A stretch of DNA of 64,000 nt from Gammaproteobacteria bacterium (GTDB lineage: Bacteria; Pseudomonadota; Gammaproteobacteria; CAIRSR01), in the NCBI GenBank assembly GCA_963575655.1, contig CAUYTY010000184.1, forward strand, positions 1 through 64,000, given 5' to 3'. The position numbers and the translations under genes were made by a program. The notes beneath the pieces were generated by a model, which saw only the letters and a list, made by a program, of their open reading frames with translations, had not been told where the DNA came from and did no database searches. Of the stretch, positions 1-28,277 are shown one piece after another (position 1 is the stretch's first letter; each line of letters begins with the position of its first letter).

Positions 1-136
1 GAATGTGATGAGATGTTTAACAAATCCCTGATTGCTTACGTCGAACTCAGGTTAGCCTAAGTTGCTATGGTGAATGATGAGATTATTTTGTTCAGAGCAC
101 CATCCAGAGAAACCAAACAAACCATCAACACGTAGC

Positions 137-168
137 AAAAAAGAGGGGGACCTATGCAGGCCCCCCTC
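137..168 (-). terminator. Rho-independent terminator of the leftward gene block
   Basis: Read on the minus strand, a GC-rich stem (GGGGG-CCT paired with AGG-CCCCC around a GCAT loop) is followed directly by a run of six T. It lies about 60 bases past the stop of the last gene of the leftward block and would close a transcript coming from 4620. Confidence 0.75.
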
Positions 169-227
169 CCCCTCTCTTCGTTTGTTGCTGCTGGCACGGT
201 GTTTAACGCGGTATTATTCAACCGCTG

Positions 228-674
228 TTAGGGAGTTACGCGTTTTGCGATCTCGGCAGAGACGCCGGGAACGCGATTATTCTTGCGGTACATGTAGTCA
301 CCCACCAGACCACCTACCACGGCACTGGTCATCATAGGAAATTGACTAGTTGCCACAGTGCGGACGATGACTGTAGTCCCTACCCTGCCCACAGCCCTAC
401 CTACAACTCCAGGTACGGCCCGGCTCATTACTGCGCTGCCTGGTAATAGGTTGTAAACCAAAACGCCCGCAAGGGTACCCAATCCGATGGATAATGCTCG
501 GTTGTCAAAGAGTGCAACATCCGTATTTTCAGACGCTTGATTCACAACATCAATGGCTTGCATCGCCGCACGGGGTACGGCCTGGGGAGCCAGCGCTGGC
601 ACCGGATCAGCGAGGGCAGATCCAGCGAAGATGAGGGACAGGGCAGCAAAGGTCAGCCTCTTAGTTGGCTTCAT
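228..674 (-). CDS. small exported protein of unknown function
   Basis: The 148-residue product has a clear signal peptide (Lys/Arg start, hydrophobic stretch, cleavage likely after SALA near residue 22). The mature part holds two hydrophobic Gly/Ala-rich stretches (about residues 64-80 and 113-130) that could insert in or lie on a membrane, somewhat like glycine-zipper proteins. I recognise no family. It is the last gene of the leftward block 4620-228 and is followed by a strong terminator, but a 349-base gap separates it from the gene upstream, so it may have its own promoter. Its presence beside mitofilin-like and Mla-like genes suggests an envelope role; this is inference only. Confidence 0.6.
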   Translation of the reverse strand: MKPTKRLTFAALSLIFAGSALADPVPALAPQAVPRAAMQAIDVVNQASENTDVALFDNRALSIGLGTLAGVLVYNLLPGSAVMSRAVPGVVGRAVGRVGTTVIVRTVATSQFPMMTSAVVGGLVGDYMYRKNNRVPGVSAEIAKRVTP

Positions 675-1023
675 CGGTTACATTCTCCAGTTGGTTGGTA
701 ACAGAACATCACCAGGTCTCCGAGAAGCCCCTGCCTTTGGGCACGGGGAAGAAGGGAGACGTTAAATTTACCGGTCTTTCCCGGCTGTCAGCCGCAAAGG
801 CGCTCGCGACTTACGCCGGCGATGTGTTCTTCGACGATTAATCCTGTCGTACAGCACACCTATCGTCGCCTCCCTGCTTCAACAACAGCAGCAGAGCTAA
901 GAATGGGAAAGTATCCGTAGATGCCGACATCACCCAAACACAGCTCACTCATTTGCCTAAACTTTCAAAAGTATTTCCATCAACAGCGCCTCACAAGTTA
1001 TCAACGCTGGCTGGATAGATTAA
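675..1023. other. intergenic, no gene recognised
   Basis: This 349-base gap lies between two minus-strand genes. I see no convincing open reading frame, RNA gene or repeat in it. It presumably holds a promoter for the gene at 228-674. Confidence 0.4.
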
Positions 1024-1899
1024 CTATGGCGTATGACTAAGTAGTGCTACCACAACTCCAGATAGGTCATTATAGGCAGCATTCACGACCAAGCGCGCAT
1101 TAGCCTCCTTCAACCAACGGGTAACAACAGCGGTGGCAGGACCATCAATTTTCGTAATCTGCTCCACTGCACCGCGCAGATCGTCCTCGGTCAATCGATC
1201 GACAACAGAGATGACCAACTGCTGCCGAGGAGTGGGTTTCACTAGCGATGAAGTGAACGGAGCGACGGCCACATTTAACCAACTAAATGCCCAATCGGTC
1301 CAGGTTTGGTCACCTTCCTCCAGCAAGGGTTGAAGCTTGGGAAGCAGGATAAGTCCAAAACTGTCCCGAAGTTCGGATATTGTGGCGACACCCACCGCTG
1401 CATAGGGTTCAAGAGTCGCCACTACTCCGGATAACTCCGTCTCCCCCCGCTCTAAGTGACGAACGAGAGTCAACTCTGGTTCGAAGGGAAGGTGAGTCTG
1501 GCTGGCAATACGGAGTTGGAGCAGAGCCAGTGCGAGACGACTCTCCCGAAGTTGAACAGAAATTGCCCCTTGCGGGGTCGCTGGTTCACCCGTTCGCACC
1601 CCCCCGATGGACTTAAGGCTCGCCAGGGCCTGCTCGGCCAGAGCGAGTCGTTCGTCGGTCACGTGGCCAGCCGCCTCCAGGGCATCAATCCGTTGAGACA
1701 GTTCTGCGATGGAGGCAGGTGATGATGGACTACCACCTTCCTGCAAGGCAAGGGTCACACCACCCACCATCAAGGAGACGACCAGTGCTCCCGTCAGTAT
1801 GGGGCGATACCAACCCTGCCCACCGCGAAGGAAGGCCACCCCTTTAATGCGATGAGCAGAGAAGGGTGAGGAAGGCGGTGGAGAGGGGAATTGCGTCAT
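1024..1899 (-). CDS. mitofilin (Mic60)-like inner-membrane protein
   Basis: The 291-residue product has a short Pro/Ser-rich cytoplasmic start, one transmembrane helix (about 33-51), a predicted coiled coil (about 64-97) and a helical C-terminal part. That part has the layout of bacterial mitofilin proteins (COG4223): a segment with LPFEPEL near 137-143, then LEPYAAVG followed by SELRDSF (163-181), then a terminal helical bundle with DDLRGAVEQI and RWLKEANARL (239-270). Mic60 proteins of alphaproteobacteria bend membranes and hold contact sites with the outer membrane; that role is known for the family and not shown here. In alphaproteobacteria the gene sits beside haem genes, whereas here it sits among unknown envelope genes. 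A remote HemX relative is the main alternative, but no methyltransferase domain is present. Confidence 0.65.
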   Translation of the reverse strand: MTQFPSPPPSSPFSAHRIKGVAFLRGGQGWYRPILTGALVVSLMVGGVTLALQEGGSPSSPASIAELSQRIDALEAAGHVTDERLALAEQALASLKSIGGVRTGEPATPQGAISVQLRESRLALALLQLRIASQTHLPFEPELTLVRHLERGETELSGVVATLEPYAAVGVATISELRDSFGLILLPKLQPLLEEGDQTWTDWAFSWLNVAVAPFTSSLVKPTPRQQLVISVVDRLTEDDLRGAVEQITKIDGPATAVVTRWLKEANARLVVNAAYNDLSGVVVALLSHTP

Positions 1900-1939
1900 T
1901 AGTATCGTTGACCCAGGATTCCATCAGCAAAATAGTACA

Positions 1940-2647
1940 CTATTTTTTAGACTCTTTCTCAAGTGCTCGTATGCTACGGTCTACCCGCTGGATGGCACGC
2001 ATCAAGGTGCTGCTCTCTTCTCCGAGAAAAGTTTGCCTGGGCGACATGACGAAGGCCACATCTGGCAGCGGCAGAAGAATTACCTTGAGGGTAGAAACCT
2101 GATAATCGCCACTGAGATTGACGGTCATTACGGTTTTTATGATCTTACGCTGCAGAGATGAATACATCCCTGGACTCTTTTGCTCCCACTCTTCCACCTG
2201 AGATTCAAGGTACTCGTAGTCGGCCTCACTGAGTTCACGTGCCTGGCCAAATTTGAAGCTCAGACCCGGGATAATACCCACATCAGTATTGATTTCCTTG
2301 AGTTTGTAGCCAGCATAGGACAACAGCTTAAAGAGCTGAACCGCATCTTGCTTGGATACTGAAGCCAGGCTGCTGGGGGTAGGAGGCGTTATCCAGTAAA
2401 AAACGTTGTCACGCAGGGTACTCCAAACCCATCCCACGGTCTGCGTCGAATAATTCCAGACGGTGCCCACTAGCGTCGGGCGTTCATCGACCATATCGGT
2501 AGGATAAGAGACCACCGCTTCAACCATGCCACCAGTTGGAGGGGGAGGGGTCGCACTAGTAGCGGTAAGCGGTACAGCAAGCAAAGCGATAACCAACATC
2601 GTTCCCGCTAGGCGACGAGTAAATAAGTTGCTATTCATTTTGTTCAA
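1940..2647 (-). CDS. exported protein of unknown function
   Basis: The 235-residue product starts with a typical signal peptide (positive start, hydrophobic core near residues 14-26, cleavage after an Ala-rich site near 32). The mature chain has a Trp-rich region near 63-87 and ends in a charged, probably helical segment (about 213-235). I do not recognise the family. It lies 21 bases past the stop of the PstS-like gene and 40 bases before the mitofilin-like gene, all on the same strand, so the three are probably one transcript. A periplasmic place next to the mitofilin-like protein is plausible, since mitofilin C-termini are periplasmic. Confidence 0.6.
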   Translation of the reverse strand: MNKMNSNLFTRRLAGTMLVIALLAVPLTATSATPPPPTGGMVEAVVSYPTDMVDERPTLVGTVWNYSTQTVGWVWSTLRDNVFYWITPPTPSSLASVSKQDAVQLFKLLSYAGYKLKEINTDVGIIPGLSFKFGQARELSEADYEYLESQVEEWEQKSPGMYSSLQRKIIKTVMTVNLSGDYQVSTLKVILLPLPDVAFVMSPRQTFLGEESSTLMRAIQRVDRSIRALEKESKK

Positions 2648-2668
2648 TCCTCTCTATGAAGTAACTCG

Positions 2669-3775
2669 TCAGCGGTCGATAATACTAAGCCGCAAACTGG
2701 CCTCGCGAATGCTGTTACGCCTTTCCTCCTCGACGGGGAATACGCCAATTTTGGACAGATAGCCACTTGGTCCAATGGTGGATTCGCGGGTAACCTCGGT
2801 AATGAATTCCCTTAGGCCAGACACCATGCCTTTGCCTCGATAGTTTTTGATGTGGGCCTTTTTGACCAAAAAGTAGAGATACCTGATAAAGGGATACCGA
2901 TGATTGGATACCGTCTCATAGTTTGGCACCACTCCATCAAATGCCTGTACCTTAAGAAATTCTTGGTGTTCGGTAGCGAAGCGCAGAGGGAGTACCGCCA
3001 GGGTCCCGAGGGGAGATGCAGCCAGGGTTTGTACTACGTTTCGATCGTAGGGGGTGTCCAGCTCAACAATACGACCGTCACTACGCAGGGAGACACATTG
3101 TTTTACCCGATCCTCCGCGCCAAAGATGGTTTTGATCTCGAGGATGCCGCGACAGGCTCCCTGTAAAATCCGATCATCCATAAAGCCACGTCCACCCAAG
3201 CTGGAAACGGGAATGATCATGCGAATTTCAGTGTTTGGTAGATTGGGATCCACCTCGTGCCAGCGGTTATAACGATTAAGAACGAAGTCATTCACGTCTC
3301 TTGGCAGTTCGGCGGCGATGGCTCGATACAGGGAGTTTAGAGTTAAAGGGTAATCCTGGTCGTCACGGCGTGAGACAAAACCACTTGCTTCGTAGCCTAC
3401 TAGGATCTCAACGATATCGTTCACCCCATGGGCACGACAGGCATCAAGCTCAGTGGAGCGAATGCGACGAGAGACTGCCACAATGTCGGGGGTATCCAAC
3501 CCGATACCGGCACAAAAAGCCTCGATACCCCGAGCCGAACCCCGATTGGCGATGATCGCCGGCGGAAGTCCCGCATTTTTGGCCAAATGCTCCATCACCG
3601 CCGCAGTGTAGTTCTTCATCAGCGTTGAACCGATGATGTACATAACTTGACCGGTTGTTCGCTCCGGTGGGAGCCCCTGAGACTCTACCGCCCACCCAGG
3701 GAAGGAGGGAAGCACCATCGAGAGGATTGCTCCCGCTAACCACTTGGTACCTGTCAATCGCCTACTCTGTATCAT
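2669..3775 (-). CDS. PstS-like periplasmic substrate-binding protein
   Basis: The 368-residue product has a signal peptide (hydrophobic 13-29, cleavage near 30) and the fold markers of PstS-type phosphate-binding proteins: GSTLMKNY near residue 49, RGSARG near 78, and PDIVAVSRRIRSTE near 96-109, which matches the region where PstS proteins mark the ligand-bound domain. The total length is usual for the family. No pstC, pstA or pstB is in the window, so a phosphate-import role is not supported by context. Orphan PstS-like proteins can act in envelope sensing or adhesion. It is the second gene of the leftward block, and its neighbours suggest the ligand may differ from phosphate. Confidence 0.65.
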   Translation of the reverse strand: MIQSRRLTGTKWLAGAILSMVLPSFPGWAVESQGLPPERTTGQVMYIIGSTLMKNYTAAVMEHLAKNAGLPPAIIANRGSARGIEAFCAGIGLDTPDIVAVSRRIRSTELDACRAHGVNDIVEILVGYEASGFVSRRDDQDYPLTLNSLYRAIAAELPRDVNDFVLNRYNRWHEVDPNLPNTEIRMIIPVSSLGGRGFMDDRILQGACRGILEIKTIFGAEDRVKQCVSLRSDGRIVELDTPYDRNVVQTLAASPLGTLAVLPLRFATEHQEFLKVQAFDGVVPNYETVSNHRYPFIRYLYFLVKKAHIKNYRGKGMVSGLREFITEVTRESTIGPSGYLSKIGVFPVEEERRNSIREASLRLSIIDR

Positions 3776-3996
3776 GTTAATACCTCTTAAACAATTTGGT
3801 AAATAGCTGCCTACCTACTCTAACTCAAGCGGCTACCTGGTGAACCACTATTTCGGTAGGGAATGCCGGCGCGACAAGTTACGAGCGGCAACTGGGGTTA
3901 ACTACCCCCTCCCCCCTCCGCACGATCTTATAGTAAGGTTACTTTGATCGCTTTACTTCGCATAATACTTTATAATACCTCTGTAACCTGTTGAAC

Positions 3997-4620
3997 TTAT
4001 ATAATAGGGGCTCCTCTTGCGGGGGGGGTCCCAATGGGGCGTTGCATCGCAGGTGCCCGTGCCGCTGCCCGCGCTGCTGCAGCCGCCCGTGCTGCTGCGG
4101 CCTGTGCCGCTGCAGCACGGGCGGCTGCAGCACGGGCGCGTTGCGCCGCCCGCCGAGCAGCACGAATGGCTGCGTACTTCTTCTTCTTTTTCTCGGCCTT
4201 GCCGTGGTAGACGAGGTAACGTTTTTCGATTTGACCAGTGAGACGCGTTCTGAGGTGCGGCCAGGAAAGGCCTGCCGCTAAAACGGTGGCCAACAAGAAT
4301 TGGACAACGATCTGCCTAAGCATAAAGGATTCTGGAGGGATCCACTTGAGAACCTCGTAGGCAGTTAGGCCCCAGATGGCCGCACCAGCAACCAGCCCTA
4401 TTCGCCCCACTGAGGAAATAATCCACCACAGCGTAAAGGTTTGGACGAACAGCAACGCTAACCCTCCAAGGACCTTGAGGACGCCCGATCCCTCTGGAGA
4501 CATCACCCAATGGTAATAGGAGTGTCCAAAGGGGTTGTAGGTCATCATAACCAGCGCCGCGCTTGTCAGCCAATGTATCAAATAGCGGCGAGGGGTGAAG
4601 TCGGTAAATACCATTGCCAT
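3997..4620 (-). CDS. DUF6524-like membrane protein with Ala/Arg-rich tail
   Basis: The 207-residue product has four likely transmembrane helices in its first 120 residues and the sequence TYNPFGHSYYHW near 28-39, which I associate with the DUF6524 family (unknown function). After the membrane part comes a lysine run (KKKKK near 144-148) and a tail of about 45 residues made almost only of Ala and Arg, coded by GC-rich repeats at about 4060-4150. Such tails resemble histone-H1-like or nucleic-acid-binding tails, and this one is predicted to face the cytoplasm. A paralogue without the tail is coded divergently at 4993. The family is named from memory; the kinship of the two proteins is visible directly. 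Confidence 0.65.
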   Translation of the reverse strand: MAMVFTDFTPRRYLIHWLTSAALVMMTYNPFGHSYYHWVMSPEGSGVLKVLGGLALLFVQTFTLWWIISSVGRIGLVAGAAIWGLTAYEVLKWIPPESFMLRQIVVQFLLATVLAAGLSWPHLRTRLTGQIEKRYLVYHGKAEKKKKKYAAIRAARRAAQRARAAAARAAAAQAAAARAAAAARAAARAPAMQRPIGTPPARGAPII

Positions 4621-4831
4621 CGGCGGGTAATACCTCTTAGTCCAAGGGTTAGTGAACGCCGTAGGGTTGCAGTTGTCTACGGGAAGTGGCAGTTACGGAG
4701 ACAGGAAGGGATTTTACGCTATCCTTCCCGCTTTCCAACAGGCACCGAGAAGGCTTAGGATTCGTCCCACAGTTTTGTAATTCGTATTATCATTCTCCAC
4801 CGAATCATGGTCGCTGCATGGGGGGCAAGCG

Positions 4832-4990
4832 ATGAAAAAACCAGGGGTGTACGATAGCGGCATGGGCCGCAGGGGGGCCTATCAGTTACTTGGGGTTTTG
4901 ACCTCGGGTGAGGGATTGGGTCGAGTGTTAGTCATGGTGCTGGCAGGGCCGATTGTCGGTGGCTCCAGCGCCAAGGGTAGTGAGGGGTAG
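4832..4990 (+). CDS. possible small membrane protein (52 residues)
   Basis: A 53-codon reading frame starts with ATG AAA AAA behind a G-rich stretch and stops two bases before the GTG of the next gene. The product would hold one weakly hydrophobic segment (RVLVMVLAGPIVGG, about residues 31-44). The close spacing to the DUF6524-like gene suggests coupling, but there is no family match. It could be a leader or chance reading frame. Confidence 0.35.
   Translation: MKKPGVYDSGMGRRGAYQLLGVLTSGEGLGRVLVMVLAGPIVGGSSAKGSEG
4982..4987 (+). promoter_or_regulatory. ribosome binding site GAGGGG
   Basis: GAGGGG lies five bases before the GTG at 4993 and supports that codon as the start of the second DUF6524-like protein. 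Confidence 0.5.
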
Positions 4991-4992
4991 CG

Positions 4993-5412
4993 GTGAGCGG
5001 ACCGGCCTTTGGTATTCCCAGCTTGGCCGTGCGTTGGCTGGGCGCTCTGTTTGCGGTACTTGCCACCTACAATCCAAGTGGCAGTTCCTATGTCCACTGG
5101 CTCGTGGACCTCTCTGATCATCGTTGGTCGCTAAAGGCGTTGGTGGGCATCATGCTGGTGGTCATAAACATGACCTTCTACTACGCTAGCATGCGTTCCC
5201 TGCGGAGCAGTGGGATGTTCGCTGCCATCATCTTTTGCATCACTGCGGTGTGGACGTTATTGGACTATGGCTATTTGCAGACTCTTACCTTCCAGACGTG
5301 GATCACGGTGATCCTGGTGCTGTCGGGTAGCATACTGGCGCTGGGCATGTCCTGGTCCCATATCCGTGGCCGTCTTTCCGGACAGTCCGACTCCAATGAC
5401 GTTACCCTCTAA
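4993..5412 (+). CDS. DUF6524-like membrane protein, tail-less paralogue
   Basis: The 139-residue product is nearly all membrane: four hydrophobic helices at about 12-28, 44-64, 72-92 and 102-122. It shares ATYNPSGSSYVHW (31-43) and the closing SWSHIRGRLSGQ with the protein coded at 3997-4620, so the two are paralogues read divergently from a common 0.4-kb region. The GTG start is backed by a GAGGGG site. The stop codon is followed with no gap by the ATG of the next gene, so the two are almost surely co-translated. The function is unknown. Confidence 0.7.
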   Translation: MSGPAFGIPSLAVRWLGALFAVLATYNPSGSSYVHWLVDLSDHRWSLKALVGIMLVVINMTFYYASMRSLRSSGMFAAIIFCITAVWTLLDYGYLQTLTFQTWITVILVLSGSILALGMSWSHIRGRLSGQSDSNDVTL

Positions 5413-6648
5413 ATGAGTTCTTTTTCTCACTGGCTTGGCCGTATGCTCAGAAAAGTGGTGCGGTTTCTGGGGGCGCGGCTTGATGCGTGGGCGGTGGGGC
5501 TGCATAGACGGTTTACCGCATGGCTAACGGTGATAAGGCTGCGGTTTGCCGCCTGGGCATCGTGGCGCCATCCGGTGTGGCTGGTGGCGCTAGCGTTACT
5601 GGTGGCGGTGCTGATCTTGGTGCGCGGCCCCTCCCACCCGGTAGCGCCGGTCCACCGACCGGTGCCGTCTGTCGTTCCCGTTAGCCCCCCCAAGCTCGGC
5701 ACCGGGATGGATGCCGCCATTGTTGCAGCCTTGGCTGGTGCACGGCAGGAAGCTGTTGGCCTGGGGCAACGTCGGGTCGCGGCGCTGGTAGGCACGCTTG
5801 CACAACGGGTACAGACCGTGTTCGTGCCCTGGTACCTGTCTTTTGGGCGGCGTAAGTTGGAGGAGATACGCGCCTACAACACCTTCGCCATGAGCTGGAT
5901 AGGGGGTCTTGCCTCGGGAAACTTCCAGGACGAATCGCGTCGAATCCTGGTCAAGACTTTCGAGGATGAGTTTTCGGCACGAGTGCTCACCCCAATGGAG
6001 ACGCGACAGGCCCTCCAGGCCATCGGCCGCGAGGTTGCCCAGGACTATGGATCGCGAGTGACGTTGGCGTTGCAGAACATCCAGGAGCGGCGCGCCATCT
6101 CTTTCCCTAAGTGGCAGAAATACCTTGAAAAGCTTCCGCCGGGGCAACTTTCCCTGGCGGCCAAGCCGATGGTGGTGCCATTGCCCGCGCTGGCTGCTCC
6201 GGATCCGATCCGGGAAGTCCTGGGAGAGGATATTGGAAAGACTCTAGTAGACCGCTTTACCCAGTTTCCTAGTGTCGCTTCCGACCACAGCGACCTCCAG
6301 GTGCGGGATGGCAGGAGCATCTTTGAGGTGGGTAGGAACGCCTGGGCCTACTACGGGTCGTATGTGATCTACTGGATCGTGCTGATTTCTCTGATCCGTA
6401 GCGGATTTATCCCCATTAACCTGTCGGGTGCCTTAGTCGGGTGGTTAATCTGGGAGACCTTCGCCTGGGGCAGTTGGATCACCTGGGAGTCTCTCGATTT
6501 CGAACAAACCCGGCTACAAATGGAGCCCCTTATCGTGCATCATTCGGATAATTATTTCGTCGGAATGCGTGCTACGCTCACTGACCCCGGCCCGGAGGGT
6601 CCGTTTCAGGTACTGCATGTACTGGAACGAAGCTGGGAGGGGGGTTAG
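5413..6648 (+). CDS. membrane protein of unknown function (paralogous helical family, member 1)
   Basis: The 411-residue product has a basic, Trp/Arg-rich N-terminus, one transmembrane helix at about 54-71, a Pro/Val-rich linker, a long helical soluble part (about 98-240) and two more membrane helices at about 311-330 and 335-357. In the helical part, F187 and P194 followed by ETRQAL match the motif seen in three neighbouring proteins. I recognise no known family. The ATG touches the stop of the DUF6524-like gene. The last 71 bases overlap, tail to tail, the gene on the other strand. Confidence 0.65.
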   Translation: MSSFSHWLGRMLRKVVRFLGARLDAWAVGLHRRFTAWLTVIRLRFAAWASWRHPVWLVALALLVAVLILVRGPSHPVAPVHRPVPSVVPVSPPKLGTGMDAAIVAALAGARQEAVGLGQRRVAALVGTLAQRVQTVFVPWYLSFGRRKLEEIRAYNTFAMSWIGGLASGNFQDESRRILVKTFEDEFSARVLTPMETRQALQAIGREVAQDYGSRVTLALQNIQERRAISFPKWQKYLEKLPPGQLSLAAKPMVVPLPALAAPDPIREVLGEDIGKTLVDRFTQFPSVASDHSDLQVRDGRSIFEVGRNAWAYYGSYVIYWIVLISLIRSGFIPINLSGALVGWLIWETFAWGSWITWESLDFEQTRLQMEPLIVHHSDNYFVGMRATLTDPGPEGPFQVLHVLERSWEGG

Positions 6649-7768
6649 CATCTCCAGCGTTGAGCAGGGGGAGGGCTCGTGCCAAACGAGCATCGATCTT
6701 CGCCTGCTCCTCTGCAAGCCAAGTCTTTCGTAGATTCTGGTGCTCATTCTCTAACACCCGATGAACCTCAGCCTCCAGCCCTGCCCTATGGATACTAGCG
6801 TCGGTCTGGCTGATCATGTAATCAATGCTGAGGAAGGCCATCACTGTGGCCGCCAAGGCACTTGCACTTCCTAGCAAGGTTTCCCCCTGATGACCAATCG
6901 CCTCTCCGGCGGCAGTCACTGCTGCGGCAACGGGTGGCCGTATGGTGAGTCGTGCCAGTAGGGGCCGAGCGGCACGGGCTTTGATGGGACCAGTAGTCGT
7001 AGCAATCTCGGCAAGGATGGGGACCTCCTCGGTGGTAGGTAAAGACTCTCCAGGTTCTTCACCCAGTTGCATAGGCAGCGTCCGACCACGCAGGAGCGCT
7101 ACCGTATGCAAGGTATCTGTCACGACGGCATCTACGGTAGGCCGCATCTCTGCAAGCCAACGTTCGTGAGCACTCCGCAACGCGGGGATACCACCGGCAG
7201 GGTGGAGAACAATTTCGTCGAACTTGGTCGCAATCAAATCATCCCAGGCCGAATCAATCCGCTCTAGACGGGGCGACTTAACGAAAGGAAGGGTAATGGC
7301 GGTTAACATTCCCTCTCGAAGAAACCTGTAACCAGTACGCCACCCGAAGGCCCATTCGCCAAAAGCGGGAACCTGGTTGTGGAAATCCGCGAACAAGGGG
7401 TCCAGAACCGCGTCCAGGCGCTCGGCAGCGGTAGCCGCAAGCAAGTGGGTATCACGCTCAACCAAGGTCTGACTGGCGGCGGTAAACCGTTCAGCGGTCG
7501 CGATGGAGACCGCTGCAACCTCCTTGCTGGATTCCCGTGACAGACCAAGCAACACCACAGCAAACAATCCCACGCCGGCCACAGTTGCGACCAAGCGGAA
7601 GGGGGCTAACGATGAAGATAGCCAACCAACTCCTGCGGGTAAGTCAATCAGTTGCGGGAGTGTCGATATTTCAGTACGACTTTGATCGTGAGAGAGTCTC
7701 ATACGGAATCCACGGGAACCACCAGGCTTTAGCCAGGTAGGGAAATTAAGGTGTGACGGTGTAGTCAC
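6578..7768 (-). CDS. membrane-anchored helical protein of unknown function (family member 2)
   Basis: The product is 396 residues from a GTG start; an ATG at residue 23 is an alternative. One transmembrane helix lies at about 57-76. The rest is mostly helical, with a coiled-coil-like charged segment near the C-terminus (about 325-366) and a weak second hydrophobic stretch at 297-315. F183 and P190 followed by a PALRSA helix match the shared motif of this locus, and LDPLF with a following FGEWAFG (122-142) aligns with LQPVF and LFDFG of the protein at 9013. It is the only gene of the central part read leftward, and its 3' end overlaps the gene at 5413 by 71 bases. Confidence 0.6.
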   Translation of the reverse strand: MTTPSHLNFPTWLKPGGSRGFRMRLSHDQSRTEISTLPQLIDLPAGVGWLSSSLAPFRLVATVAGVGLFAVVLLGLSRESSKEVAAVSIATAERFTAASQTLVERDTHLLAATAAERLDAVLDPLFADFHNQVPAFGEWAFGWRTGYRFLREGMLTAITLPFVKSPRLERIDSAWDDLIATKFDEIVLHPAGGIPALRSAHERWLAEMRPTVDAVVTDTLHTVALLRGRTLPMQLGEEPGESLPTTEEVPILAEIATTTGPIKARAARPLLARLTIRPPVAAAVTAAGEAIGHQGETLLGSASALAATVMAFLSIDYMISQTDASIHRAGLEAEVHRVLENEHQNLRKTWLAEEQAKIDARLARALPLLNAGDANPPPSFVPVHAVPETDPPGRGQ

Positions 7769-7781
7769 CTAAGCTTTTCAC

Positions 7782-7827
7782 AACCACACCGACCTGCTGG
7801 CTTTCCACCAGCTCGGGCTTTGTGGTT
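7782..7827. repeat. imperfect palindrome in the divergent gap
   Basis: AACCACA and CCGACCTGCTGG are mirrored by CCACCAGCTCGG and TGTGGTT with two mismatches around a five-base loop. It lies just before the leftward gene at 7768 and could be an operator or an mRNA hairpin. No T run follows on either strand. Confidence 0.4.
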
Positions 7828-8254
7828 TGGCTTAAACAGCAGGACCTAGCAACGCTACCAACGCCTCGCGACACAACATGCCACCCTGTTTGAGCTTATT
7901 TAAACTCCGCAACAACCCATCTCTTTTGGGAAGGTTCAGTGTAGGAAGAGCATGGATACTTTGCAAACAATCCACCTTATAGTAGCTTACCACTTTCGTG
8001 AGAGTGTTCGAGGCGGCGTTGATGGGTAGCGTGCAGGGTGGACGCACCTCGGGTATGCTACGAGCCTTTCGAGCCGATCGATTCAACAGCGGGTGATGTG
8101 TACTGCGATGGTGCCTGCGGGGTGACCATACTCGGACATTTCGCTTTTCTCGGGTCGAACGGATCTGTTATCAACCTTCCCTGCATGTACTGTATCGCTC
8201 CGGCTACCATTCGCCACTGAGGCATGAAAGGGGTCGGGCGGGGGTTCTACGGTC
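7828..8254. other. divergent intergenic region
   Basis: About 430 bases lie between the palindrome and the start of the His-rich protein. Short reading frames exist here but lack ribosome sites and recognisable products. Promoters for both directions are expected; I cannot point to a convincing -35/-10 pair. Confidence 0.35.
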
Positions 8255-9016
8255 ATGGATAAAACACATAAAAGCGGCTTGAGCCGCCTAGTAGCTTGGT
8301 TTCGTCGCTCCGATGATGAGGATGCAGCCATCCCTACGGAAGTCTCGCGGTCTCAGTCACGGGTGCGCCGCCCTTCGCTAGTGGCGGATTCTACGCGTGC
8401 GGGGATCGCCCATGCGGATCGTCCGCATGCCGATCCGATGCATAAGGATCGTCCTCACGCTGATCCAATGCGCAAGGAACGCCCTCGTGCGGAACCTGTG
8501 CAAGTCGAGCATCCCGAAGGCAAGCAAGTGCCGGCTGAGCACGTGCATTCGGCGCCTCCCGTCCATGCGGAGCATGGACACGGGGAGGCAGTTCCCCTGG
8601 AGCACGGCTCCATGGCCCACGCGGACCATCGACATGGGAACGGACATGGACACGGGCATGGTCACCACGATGTGCTGGTGGCGAAGGGCACAGGAGGACG
8701 GCTGGAACTGCACGGAAATACCCTGCACCTGACCAAAGGGGGGCTTTTTGGTTTCTTCGTGACCCTACTTGGTCTCCACGGGGGACATGCCCACCAGACC
8801 ATCAGAGTCAGTGATATCTCCGCCATCGAGTTCGAGAAACACGGCGTATTTTTTCACTATGTACGCTTCTGCTATCCGGGCGCCCCGCGAGAGAGCGGCA
8901 ATCATCTGCATGACATGATGGCGGACAACGCCCTGCTGATGAGTGTGTTCGACAATCGTGGGCTCTACCGCATCAAGGAACGGATTGAGCAGTCCATGGA
9001 AGCAAAGACATCATGA
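8255..9016 (+). CDS. histidine-rich protein with PH-like C-terminal domain
   Basis: The 253-residue product has a basic amphipathic start (about 5-18), a low-complexity linker with repeated units such as RPHADPM (about 55-80) and a strongly His-rich run (about 94-138, with HGHGHGHH). A compact beta-rich domain follows (about 146-246), holding ELHGNTLHLTKGG, a hydrophobic turn GLFGFFVTLLGL and VSDISAIEFEKHG. This pattern looks like bacterial PH-type domains that bind membranes; the match is by eye only. The His run would bind Ni, Zn, Cu or Co. The stop codon overlaps the next ATG (ATGA), so translation is coupled to the gene at 9013. Confidence 0.6.
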   Translation: MDKTHKSGLSRLVAWFRRSDDEDAAIPTEVSRSQSRVRRPSLVADSTRAGIAHADRPHADPMHKDRPHADPMRKERPRAEPVQVEHPEGKQVPAEHVHSAPPVHAEHGHGEAVPLEHGSMAHADHRHGNGHGHGHGHHDVLVAKGTGGRLELHGNTLHLTKGGLFGFFVTLLGLHGGHAHQTIRVSDISAIEFEKHGVFFHYVRFCYPGAPRESGNHLHDMMADNALLMSVFDNRGLYRIKERIEQSMEAKTS

Positions 9017-10182
9017 GGCTGGCTCACCCCCTGCTGGCGATCGGGGTACTTGTCCTAGAGGCCCTGCTGATCTGGTGGGCGATAGCGCAGATGAGACCGA
9101 TGGAGGCCGCTGCAGGGGATGTGGCGATGGCCGCCGCTGTACCCGTTCCAGCGAAGCGGTGGGTGGTGTGGTACGGGGAGGATGGTCGAGTCCATCGGCA
9201 GCGGGTAGATGCCGACGCCTATGCCGAGTTACAGCACTCCCTGCACCAAGTGCGAGAGGAGGACCTCCACCGCCTGACGAGCCTCGTCGCTGAATATCTG
9301 CGCATTGATTTACAACCTGTCTTTGACGATCTCGCGACACGTCGAGATTCTTTCTTAGTTACCCTGTTTGATTTTGGTACCAGTAGCGCACTGCTGGGGG
9401 CTGCGTTGACTGCCGCCGAAAAAGCGCAGGAGGCCGCTGGTGAAAAAACACCGTTAGATTTAGTACGAGAGGCCGCTGCCGAAGAAGTGATCGACCGATT
9501 TCGTGCCCAGTTGATCGTCCCAGAGGCCACTTTGCGTGCGGTACGGGCTACTGCGGGGCGCTCGTTATCCCTATTGAGGCAAGACTTGCTGCAAGACTGC
9601 GACCGTTACGACCGAGCTTTTCGGAGTTTTGTTTTGGAATCAACCACTACCATGGAAACGCTGGACGCCAGTGCAGGTTGGCAGGTCGACATCGCCTGGC
9701 GGCCCGAGACCGCCACCTTCCGTTCTCTCTGCGCGGGATTGCGTCGTACCGATCCCGGTATCTACCTAGCAGAACCTCTCTTGCAAGAAATCTTCGCCAA
9801 CGCGGAGCCCCCTCTGCGGGGTGAGGCGTTGGATCTGGTCCGTCCCATTGCGGAAACCGCTCTAGAAATAACCAAATACGGTGAAGATACTGCTACGTCC
9901 TTCAGCAAATGGGGGTTACCCCGGAGCTGGGCGCATCCGCCCGCGGTGTTCATGAGTTACGTCGCCAATACGCGAGTTCTGGCGCGTCGGGTGGGTGAGC
10001 GGTTGGATGTGCGTCGTTCGCGTCCACGTTTTCGGGTGGTATTGCAACAAACCCTGGATGAACTTCAGGCCAGTTTTACGGATCGCCTAAAACGTATCTG
10101 TAACGAATTCATCATCGCCGAATTGGAGCGCATTGAATTGGGACTGGCGGCGCGTGGTGAAGGTGTATGGAGTACTCCGTGA
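9013..10182 (+). CDS. membrane-anchored helical protein of unknown function (family member 3)
   Basis: The 389-residue product has one N-terminal transmembrane helix (about 6-26) and then a long, mostly helical domain rich in Arg, Glu and Leu, most likely in the periplasm. LQPVFDD (100-106) and LFDFG (118-122) align with the protein at 6578. F163 and P170 followed by EATLRAVRA carry the motif shared across this locus. No known family is recognised. The ATG overlaps the stop of the His-rich gene by four bases, and its own end overlaps the next start by 16 bases, so the three are a coupled operon. Confidence 0.65.
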   Translation: MRLAHPLLAIGVLVLEALLIWWAIAQMRPMEAAAGDVAMAAAVPVPAKRWVVWYGEDGRVHRQRVDADAYAELQHSLHQVREEDLHRLTSLVAEYLRIDLQPVFDDLATRRDSFLVTLFDFGTSSALLGAALTAAEKAQEAAGEKTPLDLVREAAAEEVIDRFRAQLIVPEATLRAVRATAGRSLSLLRQDLLQDCDRYDRAFRSFVLESTTTMETLDASAGWQVDIAWRPETATFRSLCAGLRRTDPGIYLAEPLLQEIFANAEPPLRGEALDLVRPIAETALEITKYGEDTATSFSKWGLPRSWAHPPAVFMSYVANTRVLARRVGERLDVRRSRPRFRVVLQQTLDELQASFTDRLKRICNEFIIAELERIELGLAARGEGVWSTP

Positions 10183-11306
10183 GCGGTGATTGGCAAGACC
10201 ATCGCGTGTTGATGGCTTTGGCCAGCCTCGTACTCATGGGAGGGGTGATCGTCGCGGCTTTTAATATTTTGCCTTGGTTCCCAGGCAATCCTGATGCTGC
10301 CTACGTAACCCTAGGAAGCATCAATGCCTACGCAGGAGGGGGACCGGTCTTTGTTCTCGACGACGACCTTTTTCCTCATCAATGTGGTAAGGCCCACCTA
10401 ACCCCGACGGGTGGATTAGATCTCTTCGCGTATGCTGACCCGGTTTGCCGTAATGGTGTTGCCACGTTGCGCCCCTATTTGATGGCGGCGGATCTGAGGG
10501 TCCCTTGGGCAGTGGTACCCAAGCTTGAGCGCAAAGATCTGAGCCATCTAGCGGGTCAGGTCATCGCACAGTGGGAGGAGGTGGGCTACCGGCTCATCCA
10601 TAGCTCGTTCTTCGAACAATCCTATGCCCCAGTCATCAAAGACATCCTGCGTGGCGCTTTCCGTCAGGCATGGGTCTCCCCTGCCACTAGTCAGGCCCTG
10701 GCTCGAGCTGCGGAGACCTTCGACCGACGCCAGGTGGACCGCGTAATCGAGGGGATTATCCCGGTTTTCCTGGAAAAAGCGAAAAAGAACCTCTGGCAAA
10801 CCCTGCGTAGCTATACCGAGGCCGTACTTAGTGGCGAAGACAAGGCCAATCAGGACGCGATGGCGCAGCTCGGGGCTGAAGTATTTGCCGATCCACGGGT
10901 TCATGCCCATTTGGCACAGACCTTTCCGCCCCTTTTGACCAGCCGAGAGGTGATGATCGTCGGTGCGGTAATGGCGAAGGAGTCGGGAAAGGCCATCTTC
11001 GATGACTCTCGGACCTTGCCTCTGTTGGGTCGATTACTGACGGATCAGCACTTTCTAAGCCTTCAACCATTCTCAGTCGAGGCCGAACACCTCGTCCGAG
11101 TTTTACCGGTGCGCCTCATGCGGTTGCGTCATCGGCTCGACCATAATCCCCTGGCGACTTATGTGTTACGTGCTATGGTGCGTGCCCGTCGAGATTTTCT
11201 CGTCCTTTTGTTGAGCCCACAACAGGAACGGCAGTTAGCCGACAGCGATCTACCACCGGGACCCGCATTGAGAAGAATAGAGCCGCCAATCACTCCACGG
11301 CGATAA
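10167..11306 (+). CDS. membrane-anchored helical protein of unknown function (family member 4)
   Basis: The 379-residue product has one N-terminal transmembrane helix (about 13-36), an insertion with three cysteines (C73, C94 and nearby) typical of an oxidising compartment, then a long helical domain. F165 and P172 followed by ATSQALARA match the shared motif, with the Pro-helix one residue shorter than in the other three. The ATG start overlaps the previous gene; a GTG at 10179 giving a GTGA overlap is a good alternative because GGAG lies six bases before it. Function is unknown. Confidence 0.65.
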   Translation: MEYSVSGDWQDHRVLMALASLVLMGGVIVAAFNILPWFPGNPDAAYVTLGSINAYAGGGPVFVLDDDLFPHQCGKAHLTPTGGLDLFAYADPVCRNGVATLRPYLMAADLRVPWAVVPKLERKDLSHLAGQVIAQWEEVGYRLIHSSFFEQSYAPVIKDILRGAFRQAWVSPATSQALARAAETFDRRQVDRVIEGIIPVFLEKAKKNLWQTLRSYTEAVLSGEDKANQDAMAQLGAEVFADPRVHAHLAQTFPPLLTSREVMIVGAVMAKESGKAIFDDSRTLPLLGRLLTDQHFLSLQPFSVEAEHLVRVLPVRLMRLRHRLDHNPLATYVLRAMVRARRDFLVLLLSPQQERQLADSDLPPGPALRRIEPPITPRR

Positions 11307-11488
11307 TGTTGGGGGAGATTGAAAGAAGTCGACGGCAACCCACCGTAACCCAAAGTATCGAACTGCATCGTAGCGAGGAAGTCCTGTATTAGCCCCTTCA
11401 AAGGTGAACTGCGGGGAAAGCTCGATACTTAACTTGTGATTAAAAAACTCTCTCCTATCTTGGAGGCAGAGGTTTTTCGGAGACTTTG

Positions 11489-13021
11489 ATGAATGCCTCA
11501 CCGGGCCTCACTGTTGAGGGCCTTACAATCGTCACTCCCACGGGCAAGGTATTGGTGGAAGATGCCAAATTCAGCCTTGCTGAGGGTGCGGTGGTATTGC
11601 TGGTAGGACCAAGCGGCAGTGGCAAATCCACTATCATCAAACTCCTCAGCGGATTACTGGAGGACGAGGGAAAGCCATGGCACATCGAGGGCACACTGAT
11701 TCACGGTGGGCAAATCCATGACCTCGCTCACGAGCGTTGTGACATTGGGGGATTGGTATTTCAGAATTACGCCCTCTTCGATGACCTTACGGCGCAGGAA
11801 AATCTAGGTATCGCCCTGGATCATGCCGAGCATTCCGACCCGGCCCTGATGGAATATTTGCTGGATCTGCTCACCGATATTGAACCTCATCAGACCATCG
11901 CCTCTTCCAGCGGAGGACAGCGCCAGCGGCTTGCCATCGCACGGACTCTATTGGCCAACCGGCCGCTACTGTTGTTCGATGAGCCCAACTCTGGCCTCGA
12001 CCCGTCCACAGCCCAGCGCCTCGGGGTGCTCATCCAAGACCTGTGTCGGCGGATGGGACGACCGGCGTTGATCGTTGCACACCACGTAGACGACATCCTG
12101 CCACTGGCGGACGCTGTCTACCTGCTAGATGTCCGAACCCGGACGCTACGCCCCCTACCTCTCGACCGAGAAGCGGTCGATGAGGCATTGCTGGCCGTGG
12201 GAGAGGAGGAAGAAAAGGTAGTTTCTTCGCTAGAGGCAACATCGAAATCGTCAGCGTCGACTACATCGGAGATCACTGATCGTTGGCGTCGGCGTCTAAA
12301 GTCACATCCTCCCCAGCGTTGGTTTTTTCGCTACCTCCACGAATACTTCTGGATCCTTTGGGGTTCACCTTTGATGCTGCTCTATATTTTTTCCGGGGCA
12401 GCCATCGTAGGTTTCGTTACTCTGTGGTTCGGTTTCAACTACGAATTATTGGGTGACGCGATCCGCTCCTTTATCCACGATGAATCCTTGGCGGGTATAG
12501 GATTTATCGAGGGCTACATTGGAGTGCCTCTAATCACATGTATCCTCATGGTGGCACGCAACAATGCCATCATTACTGCGGATGTAGGAAATCGTGTCCT
12601 TTCTGCCCAGTTTCTAGCGATGCGCAATCTCCACATTCCGGGGCGGCGTTATCTTACGGCGGCGATATTAATCAATACTCTAGCAGGAACACTGGTATTG
12701 GTTAGTGCTTCGTTGGTGGTTGCGGGCTGGACCTCGTTCAAAACTTGGCAGTTTCTATTTAATGAACAACCTTTTGAACTGTGGCAAGAAAATTTCTTTC
12801 ACATACTATTGCGTGATTCAGCCGCTACTTGGCGTAACTTATTCTGGGTGGTGATGAAGATCTTGTTGAGTGGGGCTTGCGGTTCGTGGTTGGCGATCCG
12901 TGCCGGATTTTCTCGTAAAAATTCGGTGATCGCCGTGAATTACGCTATTGCTCGTTCCATCGTCATGGGAGTAACGGTAACCCTGCTGATCCATGCAGGT
13001 ATTGCCGTGATGGTGTACTAA
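11489..13021 (+). CDS. MlaF-MlaE fusion: ABC ATPase joined to lipid-type permease
   Basis: The 510-residue product begins with a complete ABC ATPase: Walker A GPSGSGKST (about 40-48), Q-loop VFQNY, signature SSSGGQRQRLA (139-149), Walker B LLLFDEPNSGLD and an H-loop with AHH. After a Ser/Glu-rich linker (about 238-262) comes a permease of the MlaE type (about 280-510) with the conserved core region GVPLITCILMVARNNAI and TADVGNR and a closing helical pair typical of MlaE. MlaFE moves phospholipids between the membranes, normally from two genes and with an MCE protein MlaD. Here both are one chain and no MCE gene is seen. The ATG is preceded by GGAG at good spacing. Confidence 0.8.
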   Translation: MNASPGLTVEGLTIVTPTGKVLVEDAKFSLAEGAVVLLVGPSGSGKSTIIKLLSGLLEDEGKPWHIEGTLIHGGQIHDLAHERCDIGGLVFQNYALFDDLTAQENLGIALDHAEHSDPALMEYLLDLLTDIEPHQTIASSSGGQRQRLAIARTLLANRPLLLFDEPNSGLDPSTAQRLGVLIQDLCRRMGRPALIVAHHVDDILPLADAVYLLDVRTRTLRPLPLDREAVDEALLAVGEEEEKVVSSLEATSKSSASTTSEITDRWRRRLKSHPPQRWFFRYLHEYFWILWGSPLMLLYIFSGAAIVGFVTLWFGFNYELLGDAIRSFIHDESLAGIGFIEGYIGVPLITCILMVARNNAIITADVGNRVLSAQFLAMRNLHIPGRRYLTAAILINTLAGTLVLVSASLVVAGWTSFKTWQFLFNEQPFELWQENFFHILLRDSAATWRNLFWVVMKILLSGACGSWLAIRAGFSRKNSVIAVNYAIARSIVMGVTVTLLIHAGIAVMVY

Positions 13022-25894: not shown

Positions 25895-26750
25895 AATTTT
25901 GAAGTATTATCGTGCGCAACGAGAACTTTACTTGGAAAGAACCTCCAATGGCTAACAGAGCTGTTTTGTGTCCATGCTGTAAATGTGATCATGTCGTTAA
26001 ACGCGGCAAGACGGAACTTGGAAAACAACGCTATCTCTGCCTGAAGCCGGAATGTGGTAGGAAGACATTCATTTTAGATTATACCTACCAGGGGTATTTG
26101 CCAGAAGTCAAGGAGCAGATCATCGACATGGCAATGAACGGCAGCGGGATCCGTGATACTGCGCGGGTATTGGGAATTAGTCCAGGGACGGTTATTAGCA
26201 AAATAAAAGAAACAAGAACCCTATATGGAACCAGTCAATCGGTCACTACTGGAAAGACTGAATTCAGATGACATTCTTTCTGATATTCAGAAAGTTGAAG
26301 GTGCTGAAGTGGATGATAATGTGGAGCTATGTCGGCAACAAGGAAAATCAACGCTGGCTTTGGCATGCTATTGACCATGCTACGGGAAATGTTCTTGCGT
26401 ATGTGTTTGGCAAAAGGAAAGATTCGGTATTTTTGTCCTTAAAAGAACTCCTCAAGCCGTTTGGGATTTCTCGATTTTATACTGACGATTGGGGGGCTTA
26501 TGAACGGAATTTACCAGTCGAACAACAAATCATTAGCAAGAAGAATACTCAAAAAATCGAGAGGAAACATTTAATGTTACGGACACGTATCAAACGGCTT
26601 GCCCGGAAAACCATTTGCTTCTCCAAACTTGAGAAAATGCATGATATTGTGATTGGTCTCTTCATAAATCGCTATGAATTTGGCGTCTTAGTCTGAAAAA
26701 TATCTAAATTATGGAACATTACTGGCCATATCCAGGTCTGGAACACCACC
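25825..26750 (+). mobile_element. IS1-family insertion sequence
   Basis: The 926-base element is bounded by matching ends, GGTGGTGTTTCAGACCTGG on the left and the inverse of GGTGGTGTTCCAGACCTGG on the right. It carries an InsA-like and InsB-like transposase. No target duplication can be seen because an inverted copy of its own left end follows directly on the right. Confidence 0.8.
25948..26696 (+). pseudogene. IS1-family transposase, frame-broken
   Basis: The first part (from the ATG at 25948) has an InsA-type zinc finger (CPCCKCDH and CLKPEC) and a helix-turn-helix (ARVLGISPGTVISK). It runs out of frame at about 26205-26215. A second frame holds LLERLNSDDILSDIQKVE and EVDD, and a third frame from MWSYVG (about 26315) to 26696 holds the DDE domain (QRWLWHAIDHATG, FYTDDWGAY, IERKHLMLRTRIKRL). 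IS1 elements use one programmed -1 shift, but here two +1 changes are needed, and the second separates the first catalytic Asp from the rest. The copy is therefore probably inactive. Confidence 0.75.
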
Positions 26751-26872
26751 GGAGGTTCTTTCCAAGTAAAGTTCTCGTTGCGCACGATAATACTTCAAAA
26801 TTATGGCAGAAAGTCACCCGATACCCATGTTTGAAGAATGGCTACCGCAATATCCAGGTCTGAAACACCACC
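26751..26872. repeat. inverted copy of the IS1 left end
   Basis: These 122 bases are the reverse complement of 25825-25946, ending in the IS1 terminal repeat. Together with 27175-27285 it shows a second, rearranged IS1 copy. Confidence 0.8.
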
Positions 26873-27174
26873 CCATATTCCTCTTGGGAACGTGGCGCCA
26901 ATGAGAATATGAATGGACTAATCCGCCAGTTCTTTCCAAAGAAGATGAGTCTTAAATTCATCCCTGAAAAACTTATCCAGAGGGCAAAGGATTTCCTAAA
27001 TCACCGGCCACGGAAATGCCTCGGGTTCAAAACTCCTTTTGAAGTGTTCAATAATGAGTTACAATCGATTAACCCACCCGTTGCACTTCAAGGTTGAATC
27101 CGCCGCTTAAGATAGAATAGTGTATAATTTTCAATCGATTATAGCAAGAATCAAAATAGACCAGTGCCATATTG
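26872..27174 (+). repeat. 303-base duplicate of the IS30-like fragment
   Basis: The stretch looks identical to 28052-28354 (offset 1180). It codes for the C-terminal end of an IS30-type transposase (NENMNGLIRQFFPKK to the stop at 27097) plus about 75 bases past it. It is flanked by IS1 ends on both sides. Confidence 0.85.
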
Positions 27175-27285
27175 GGTGGTGTTCCAGACCTGGATATGGC
27201 CAGTAATGTTCCATAATTTAGATATTTTTCAGACTAAGACGCCAAATTCATAGCGATTTATGAAGAGACCAATCACAATATCATG
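27175..27285. repeat. inverted copy of the IS1 right end
   Basis: These 111 bases are the reverse complement of about 26640-26750, starting with the IS1 terminal repeat. They hold the last codons of the InsB-like frame on the minus strand. Confidence 0.8.
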
Positions 27286-27345
27286 GGGACTGGTTCAGTC
27301 TGATTCCATCCTAACTGACTGATTATTATTGTGGGAGTCGATCCA

Positions 27346-27610
27346 TTAGGCGGTTTTCTGGATCATTAAAATCTGCTCCCAGGAAAATCTTTTTTCTATA
27401 ACACCTAAAGAAACCGCAGGAACTTGTTTAGTGGTGAAATGTATCCGGATAAAGTTATGGACAATCCAAACACCATCCAATACCCGCTGGAGGCCTGATT
27501 TATTTTTTGCATACATATTCGTCCTGCGTCGGTAAGCGGAACAGCGCCTCCTTATGGAGGAATTAAATGCCTCGGCATGATTGGCGTGGGTTTCCTTATT
27601 GGTAATATAG
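27346..27610 (-). pseudogene. transposase C-terminal fragment
   Basis: An open frame on the minus strand without a start reads HANHAEAFNSSIRRRCSAYR, then GLQRVLDGVWIVHNFIR and a stop at 27346. This is the C-terminal end of a DDE transposase whose family I recognise by this His-Glu-Arg-rich end but cannot name surely. Its front half is missing where the IS630 fragment joins. Confidence 0.6.
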
Positions 27611-27629
27611 CAAAGCCACCATAAAATGA

Positions 27630-27785
27630 TTACGCATAATTTGCGAAGACTTCCTCGGTAGTACGGCGTTCTCTTTTGTCAATCGCCTTTAATTGCGCCC
27701 ACTTATGTTCGATGGGATTGAAATCTGGTGAATAAGGGGGTAAATATTCCAGAATATGGCCCGCATTTTTGATGGCTTGTTGAAT
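27630..27785 (-). pseudogene. IS630-family transposase fragment
   Basis: The frame reads AIKNAGHILEYLPPYSPDFN followed by PIEHKWAQLK, the third-acid (Glu) region typical of IS630 transposases. The open frame extends to 27836, but codons upstream of about 27785 come from a MITE-like element and not from the transposase. Both ends of the IS are lost. Confidence 0.75.
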
Positions 27786-27887
27786 AGACCTTATCGGAAA
27801 CCCCCTACCTAGCTCTGCCGGACAACGCAACCTCATGATTTATATTGACTGTGGTGGGTGATGAGGAGGTTTCCGATAAGGTCTATT
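27783..27887. repeat. MITE-like element, family A (105 bases)
   Basis: Perfect 20-base ends AATAGACCTTATCGGAAACC and its complement bound 65 bases of unrelated sequence. It joins an IS630 fragment on its left to an IS30 fragment on its right. Related elements lie at 28956-29034 and 39577-39750, with single ends near 37935 and 49602. Confidence 0.75.
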
Positions 27888-28277
27888 GCCCATGTGGCTA
27901 GCAAAGAGGCCGCTGTTGTGGCGGACACGATGATTTCCTTACTCAAGCCTTTCGCTGATCATGTTCACACTATCACGACCGACAACGGCAAGGAGTTTTC
28001 TCAACATCAACGAATCGCCAAGGAACTGAATGCGGGGTTCTATTTCGCACACCCATATTCCTCTTGGGAACGTGGCGCCAATGAGAATATGAATGGACTA
28101 ATCCGCCAGTTCTTTCCAAAGAAGATGAGTCTTAAATTCATCCCTGAAAAACTTATCCAGAGGGCAAAGGATTTCCTAAATCACCGGCCACGGAAATGCC
28201 TCGGGTTCAAAACTCCTTTTGAAGTGTTCAATAATGAGTTACAATCGATTAACCCACCCGTTGCACTTCAAGGTTGA
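27888..28277 (+). pseudogene. IS30-family transposase fragment
   Basis: The C-terminal half of an IS30-type DDE transposase: TITTDNGKEFSQH (second Asp), HPYSSWERGANENMNGLIRQ (the Glu region) and HRPRKCLGFKTPFEVF. The first catalytic Asp and the DNA-binding part are missing. The open frame begins at 27858 within the MITE-like repeat, which is not part of the transposase. The last 226 coding bases also occur at 26872-27097. Confidence 0.8.

Follow-up and report, generated by a model that had tools for sequence, protein, structure and literature searches.

A Mic60-type protein and a putative one-chain lipid ABC transporter encoded in a conserved gene block of the gammaproteobacterial order CAIRSR01, with a core also present in Azospirillum

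A block of twelve genes in a gammaproteobacterium of the GTDB order CAIRSR01 encodes both a predicted Mic60/mitofilin homologue (B) and a one-chain MlaF-MlaE-type ABC transporter (L), and a core of the same genes is found on a plasmid of the alphaproteobacterium Azospirillum sp. B510. Judged from sequence comparison, this core is real and common to two proteobacterial classes, and it seems to be rare. We tentatively read the locus as an inner-membrane machine for lipid transport and membrane shaping, in which an ABC lipid transporter would be coupled to a Mic60-type shaper, and we hold this reading with somewhat less than even confidence. The presence of a Mic60 homologue in a gammaproteobacterial lipid-transporter locus whose core Azospirillum shares suggests a transferable bacterial module for membrane bending and lipid supply.

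Results

The window (the whole stretch of 64,000 nucleotides analysed here) is the start of contig C184 within a 4.2-Mb assembly, and the twelve open reading frames occupy positions 228-13021 (Table 1). The initial annotation had described two divergent arms; the strands instead define four units, A-E (-), F-G (+), H (-) and I-L (+), after which come dedD, cvpA and purF. The first base of G directly follows the stop codon of F, the pairs I-J and J-K overlap, and K and L, 180 bp apart in the window, overlap in two of the related genomes (G002 and G003). Foreign composition was considered and rejected, the GC content of the block (51-59%) being close to that of its flanks; accD-folC-dedD is the usual gene order. 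Insertion-sequence transposase remnants, with IS1-like and integrase-like frames named by eye, lie at 25912-28274 of the window.

The block was compared across four genomes of CAIRSR01 (the source genome G000, G001, G002 and G003), which represent one family and two genera. Synteny of the whole block, continuing through dedD-cvpA-purF, is found in G002 and G003, and the order is kept across the two genera. In G001, F-L are syntenic on contig C133 behind gyrB, A-D lie on C358 and E is absent; the left arm is separable from the remainder of the block in this one genome, and because it sits there on another contig, B and K-L need not be co-transcribed. In each of the twelve genes, divergence among CAIRSR01 orthologues at codon position 3 greatly exceeds that at positions 1 and 2, and F is the most conserved gene. 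With coding-type divergence and conservation in four genomes, one of them without E, the twelve-gene block is real. G and H, on opposite strands, share 65-71 bp at their 3' ends in all four genomes (6578-6648 in the window), which is unusually long for a conserved tail-to-tail overlap.

Table 1. Genes of the block, with window positions, strands and predicted products
Gene	Position	Strand	Product and matches
A	228..674	-	Small exported protein, signal-like N-terminus, Gly-rich hydrophobic stretches; no known family; orthologue on G001:C358
B	1024..1899	-	Predicted Mic60/mitofilin homologue; TM helix at residues 34-52, C-terminal mitofilin-like domain
C	1940..2647	-	Exported, no known family; adjoins D; C-D pair again on Azospirillum pAB510e
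D	2669..3775	-	PstS-like periplasmic ligand-binding protein; PF12849 E 4e-23; PDB 9jwy E 1e-43
E	3997..4620	-	DUF6524 membrane protein, Lys/Ala/Arg-rich tail; PF20134 E 3e-22; absent from G001
F	4993..5412	+	DUF6524 membrane protein; PF20134 E 4e-37; 94-96% identity within family
G	5413..6648	+	Membrane-anchored helical protein, putative remote G/H/J superfamily member
H	6578..7768	-	Membrane-anchored helical protein with hydrophobic hairpin; start uncertain; 98.1% profile match to outside family
I	8255..9016	+	Soluble; His-rich linker; very conserved C-terminal domain; no known family
J	9013..10182	+	Membrane-anchored helical protein, H/J family; 96.9% profile match to outside family
K	10167..11306	+	Membrane-anchored, directly upstream of L; no known family; Azospirillum homologue AZL_RS21555 (E 2e-16)
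L	11489..13021	+	Predicted MlaF-MlaE fusion, one-chain ABC lipid-transporter-type protein; 52% identity to AZL_RS33575, full length

L carries an ABC_tran domain (E 8e-25, 88 bits) and an MlaE domain (37.2 bits against a cut-off of 22.5) in a single chain, in agreement with the MlaF-MlaE fusion named by the initial annotation, and Walker A, signature, Walker B and H-loop are recognisable in its sequence. With its start probably at ATG 11489, L is, by its domains and motifs, a one-chain MlaF-MlaE-type ABC transporter with an ATPase site of recognisable make-up. Like MlaFEDB (Mla), the locus combines an ABC ATPase with an MlaE-type permease, a gene for a membrane-anchored partner adjoins and, in Azospirillum, MlaA is nearby. 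Unlike Mla, it has ATPase and permease fused, it is joined with Mic60-like and DUF6524 genes, and it holds no MCE (MlaD) gene, Pfam searches giving no MCE match for any protein of the block; matches to PF02470 (MCE), and other matches to PF02405 (MlaE), lie on other contigs in all four CAIRSR01 genomes. The neighbouring K is only 23% identical to its Azospirillum counterpart and gave no match to MCE-like proteins; its structure model was poor (pLDDT 41) and not usable, and a virus scan with K gave no match. The MlaE domain of L found no convincing relative among 365 other Gammaproteobacteria, the one weak match being a frame with stops, and among 72,556 plasmid records relatives of L appeared only on pAB510b at the limits used. 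The MlaE-domain search is the better negative, as a search with concatenated profiles was shallow, scoring about two candidates per genome, and cannot prove A, B, C, I and K absent from Gammaproteobacteria.

B alone scores 13 bits against Mitofilin (PF09731), a borderline value below the cut-off, but all four B orthologues match this family, two of them above the cut-off (31.0 and 27.8 against 27.4 bits), and hhalign relates B to two annotated Azospirillum mitofilins at 98.4%. HemX was rejected as an identity for B (0.1% against E. coli HemX by hhalign). On these profile comparisons B is a Mic60/mitofilin homologue, and the earlier description of a mitofilin-like protein is borne out. As in Mic60/mitofilin, the MICOS core component with an alphaproteobacterial counterpart, an N-terminal TM helix is followed by a helical middle and a C-terminal mitofilin domain; unlike it, B comes from a gammaproteobacterium and is encoded next to a lipid ABC transporter. 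According to PMC9764997, Mic60 is found in Alphaproteobacteria and mitochondria only.

A tblastn search of plasmids with B gave a match on pAB510b of Azospirillum sp. B510, where the locus AZL_RS21545-RS21565 holds two DUF6524 genes, homologues of K, L (E 1e-178) and B (E 3e-16), and a gene for an MlaA lipoprotein (AZL_RS33570); the genes of the K and L homologues overlap. A second gene annotated as mitofilin lies about 20 kb away from this core on the same plasmid. The locus is the only co-occurrence known outside CAIRSR01, and it is of the kind proposed as a check on the block: mitofilin, K-type, MlaFE-fusion and DUF6524 genes stand together again in an alphaproteobacterium. The suggestion of a purely lineage-specific locus is not supported, the core being common to two classes. 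The pAB510b locus differs from the block in having MlaA and in missing A, C, D, G, H, I and J: a pair homologous to C-D is on pAB510e, a separate plasmid from K-L-B, and A, G, H, I and J were not found in the loci of either plasmid. No published description of the block was found. The idea of a candidate undescribed system is strengthened, though not for the whole block as one unit, given the separable left arm and the five genes not found in the Azospirillum loci.

D belongs to PBP_like_2 and has paralogues elsewhere in G002 and G003. Unlike PstSCAB, the block has no permease gene to go with it, as was recognised when D was called a PstS-like protein without its transporter. The C-D pair is duplicated by itself on G002:C22, and this second pair lies directly upstream of an 8-kb ORF resembling a peptide synthetase (1-10077 of locus L103). 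Such a solitary duplication, the separate left arm of G001 and the placement of C-D and K-L-B on different B510 plasmids would fit two or three unrelated operons that adjoin by chance (C-D for ligand binding, K-L for transport, and G/H/J) and share no common task. We regard this as quite unlikely, as the two genera represented by G002, G003 and the window keep the same order, and the majority of the block genes recur in one Azospirillum strain.

Both E and F match PF20134, as expected for the two DUF6524-like genes first noted. DUF6524 was rejected as a marker of the block: it is common, exceeding the cut-off in 63 of 369 sampled Gammaproteobacteria, with neighbours unrelated to the block, and is therefore not diagnostic. 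For I, the His-rich linker was confirmed, but not the PH-like domain once suspected there, as I has no Pfam match and its best PDB profile match is no better than E 0.4.

Direct hhalign comparison among G, H, J and K gave only a weak J-H match. After family expansion H and J join an undescribed outside family (Table 1), and G is tied in by a protein from a Microvirga plasmid, to which G and the H/J family both align at 93% by hhalign; the families compared here are small, consist of close relatives and give profiles built from few sequences. On such matches G, H and J make up an undescribed superfamily that excludes K, so that of the four membrane-anchored paralogues originally proposed three appear related and K does not. 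AlphaFold2 (AF2) modelled an outside family member from 36 sequences with a mean pLDDT of 71.6 (above 90 in the helical core); in the model a TM helix and a beta hairpin are accompanied by long helices, a hydrophobic region rich in Gly and, at the end, a helix of 70 residues. Foldseek matches of this model to ClyA, BDLP and ALIX were not significant; unlike bacterial dynamin-like proteins, the 36 H/J-family members have no Pfam match to a dynamin GTPase, and the match to BDLP had E 0.28. A defence-system reading of H and J was discarded: SbcCD-like neighbours occur in Bradyrhizobium and one outside member has a weak LeoBC match, with none for the window proteins. In one H/J-family protein (L079:9249-10922) the anchor is preceded by about 160 additional residues that form a further N-terminal domain, which indicates varied domain arrangements in the family.

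The H/J family is present in 30 of 43 genomes of another order, inferred to be Beggiatoaceae (cf. PMC5728499). Beggiatoaceae, some of which are vacuolate, store sulfur in pockets of membrane (PMC6995342), and this distribution would suit a system that makes compartments for sulfur globules or vacuoles and not for carbonate, with H/J proteins as scaffolds of the surrounding membrane. We consider such a role very unlikely for the block: the identity of that order as Beggiatoaceae is only inferred, single members of the family turn up in Bradyrhizobium and further unrelated genomes, and near the outside H/J-family genes there is no other block gene, save ABC ATPases caught generically by the L profile. 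At nine of the probable Beggiatoaceae loci (L110, L111, L112, L113, L115, L117, L118, L119 and L125) the H/J-family gene is followed by one for a membrane-anchored protein with a motif resembling, by eye, a DNA/RNA non-specific endonuclease.

Discussion

In the machine that we tentatively favour, L would insert phospholipid into the inner membrane or extract it from there at the expense of ATP, and K, anchored in the inner membrane, would stand where Mla has its MCE ring (MlaD). B would bend the inner membrane and hold it at junctions in the manner of Mic60 in cristae and in alphaproteobacterial intracytoplasmic membranes. G, H and J, with their anchor helix, helical stalk and hydrophobic hairpin, could be order-specific scaffolds, I a cytoplasmic adaptor, and D with C might sense or buffer a periplasmic ligand. 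The initial annotation had suggested a machine that organises membranes or moves lipid between them, and this is strengthened by the mitofilin assignment and the co-occurrence of the core, although not for the whole block as a single unit. Arguing for a machine of transport and shaping are the recurrence of K-L-B and two DUF6524 genes with MlaA on pAB510b, and of C-D on pAB510e; the domains of L and the identity of B; the adjacency and overlap of K and L in G002, G003 and Azospirillum; and the H/J-family model with its TM helix, long helices and Gly-rich hairpin. Against it are the separate left arm of G001, the lack of A, G, H, I and J in the Azospirillum loci, the low identity of K and the failure of K to match MCE-like proteins; nor is Azospirillum sp. 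B510 known as a former of intracellular carbonate.

The same core could instead serve ordinary outer-membrane lipid homeostasis, as a divergent Mla/Pqi-like pathway for phospholipid between inner and outer membranes in which B would be an envelope contact-site anchor with no role in internal compartments. The MlaA lipoprotein gene beside the Azospirillum core, the MlaE-type permease in L and the lack of reported carbonate or magnetosomes in Azospirillum B510 all point this way. The locus has no MCE gene, canonical MlaE and MlaD are already encoded elsewhere in all four genomes and, to our knowledge, no Mic60-type protein is among the parts of the described Mla or Pqi systems; we find this explanation possible but rather doubtful.

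Returning to a machine that transports lipid and shapes membrane, in CAIRSR01 it would most likely supply and shape the membrane from which junctions or compartments of the inner membrane are built or maintained, the leading candidate being the carbonate inclusion. In Alphaproteobacteria, Mic60 deforms membranes and sustains intracytoplasmic ones (PMC12136173), which is in line with such a role. CAIRSR01 comprises, according to PMC11773610, the lake MAGs KR_bin-0880 (CAIJYR010000192) and KR_bin-4016 (CAIRSR010000122), deposited as Thiotrichales, and also morphotype 3 and GRS-1, giant magnetotactic Gammaproteobacteria with intracellular inclusions of amorphous CaCO3 bounded by a lipid bilayer. 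The Azospirillaceae, too, include published magnetotactic carbonate formers; for such bacteria no molecular determinants of intracellular carbonate formation are available, and ccyA is reported absent from them (PMC11773610). All four CAIRSR01 genomes look magnetotactic because MamK exceeds its curated cut-off in each, and this, together with the bilayer-bounded CaCO3 within the order, also favours transport and shaping. The gene order around MamK is mam-like in the two genomes read, and the mam operon is not on the contigs of the block. A second MamK-like gene, just below the cut-off, is found at G001:C244:14219-15214, and a broken-up MamK-like stretch in the source genome at G000:C201:22931-23901.

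By analogy with its relatives, the source species may form carbonate. The block is present in the four genomes analysed from an order with formers of intracellular amorphous carbonate; its core is also in Azospirillum B510, which is not known as a carbonate former. Like the mam genes and cyanobacterial ccyA, the block occurs in bacteria with intracellular minerals; unlike them, it stands apart, with no sequence relation to either seen and with the mam operon on other contigs. A tie of the locus to carbonate or magnetosome compartments is an attractive candidate hypothesis that fits the lineage. The more specific proposal would make the locus the first gene set known to build the membrane compartments of intracellular CaCO3, a MICOS-like machine in which Mic60 is combined with a lipid transporter and which CAIRSR01 and Azospirillaceae, both with magnetotactic bacteria that form bilayer-bounded CaCO3, have exchanged; this seems to us unlikely. 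The locus is a concrete candidate determinant of intracellular carbonate formation, and its core is open to experiment in Azospirillum, which can be cultivated.

About 12-18 kb from the mitofilin gene of pAB510b, behind an IS element, lie genes for a DUF2309 protein, a proton-conducting transporter subunit and a gamma carbonic anhydrase (74053-79723; L161:13054-18724). The first two we take to be a DabAB-like pair for inorganic-carbon uptake. Their position near the core is suggestive in that it fits the carbonate theme, possibly by chance.
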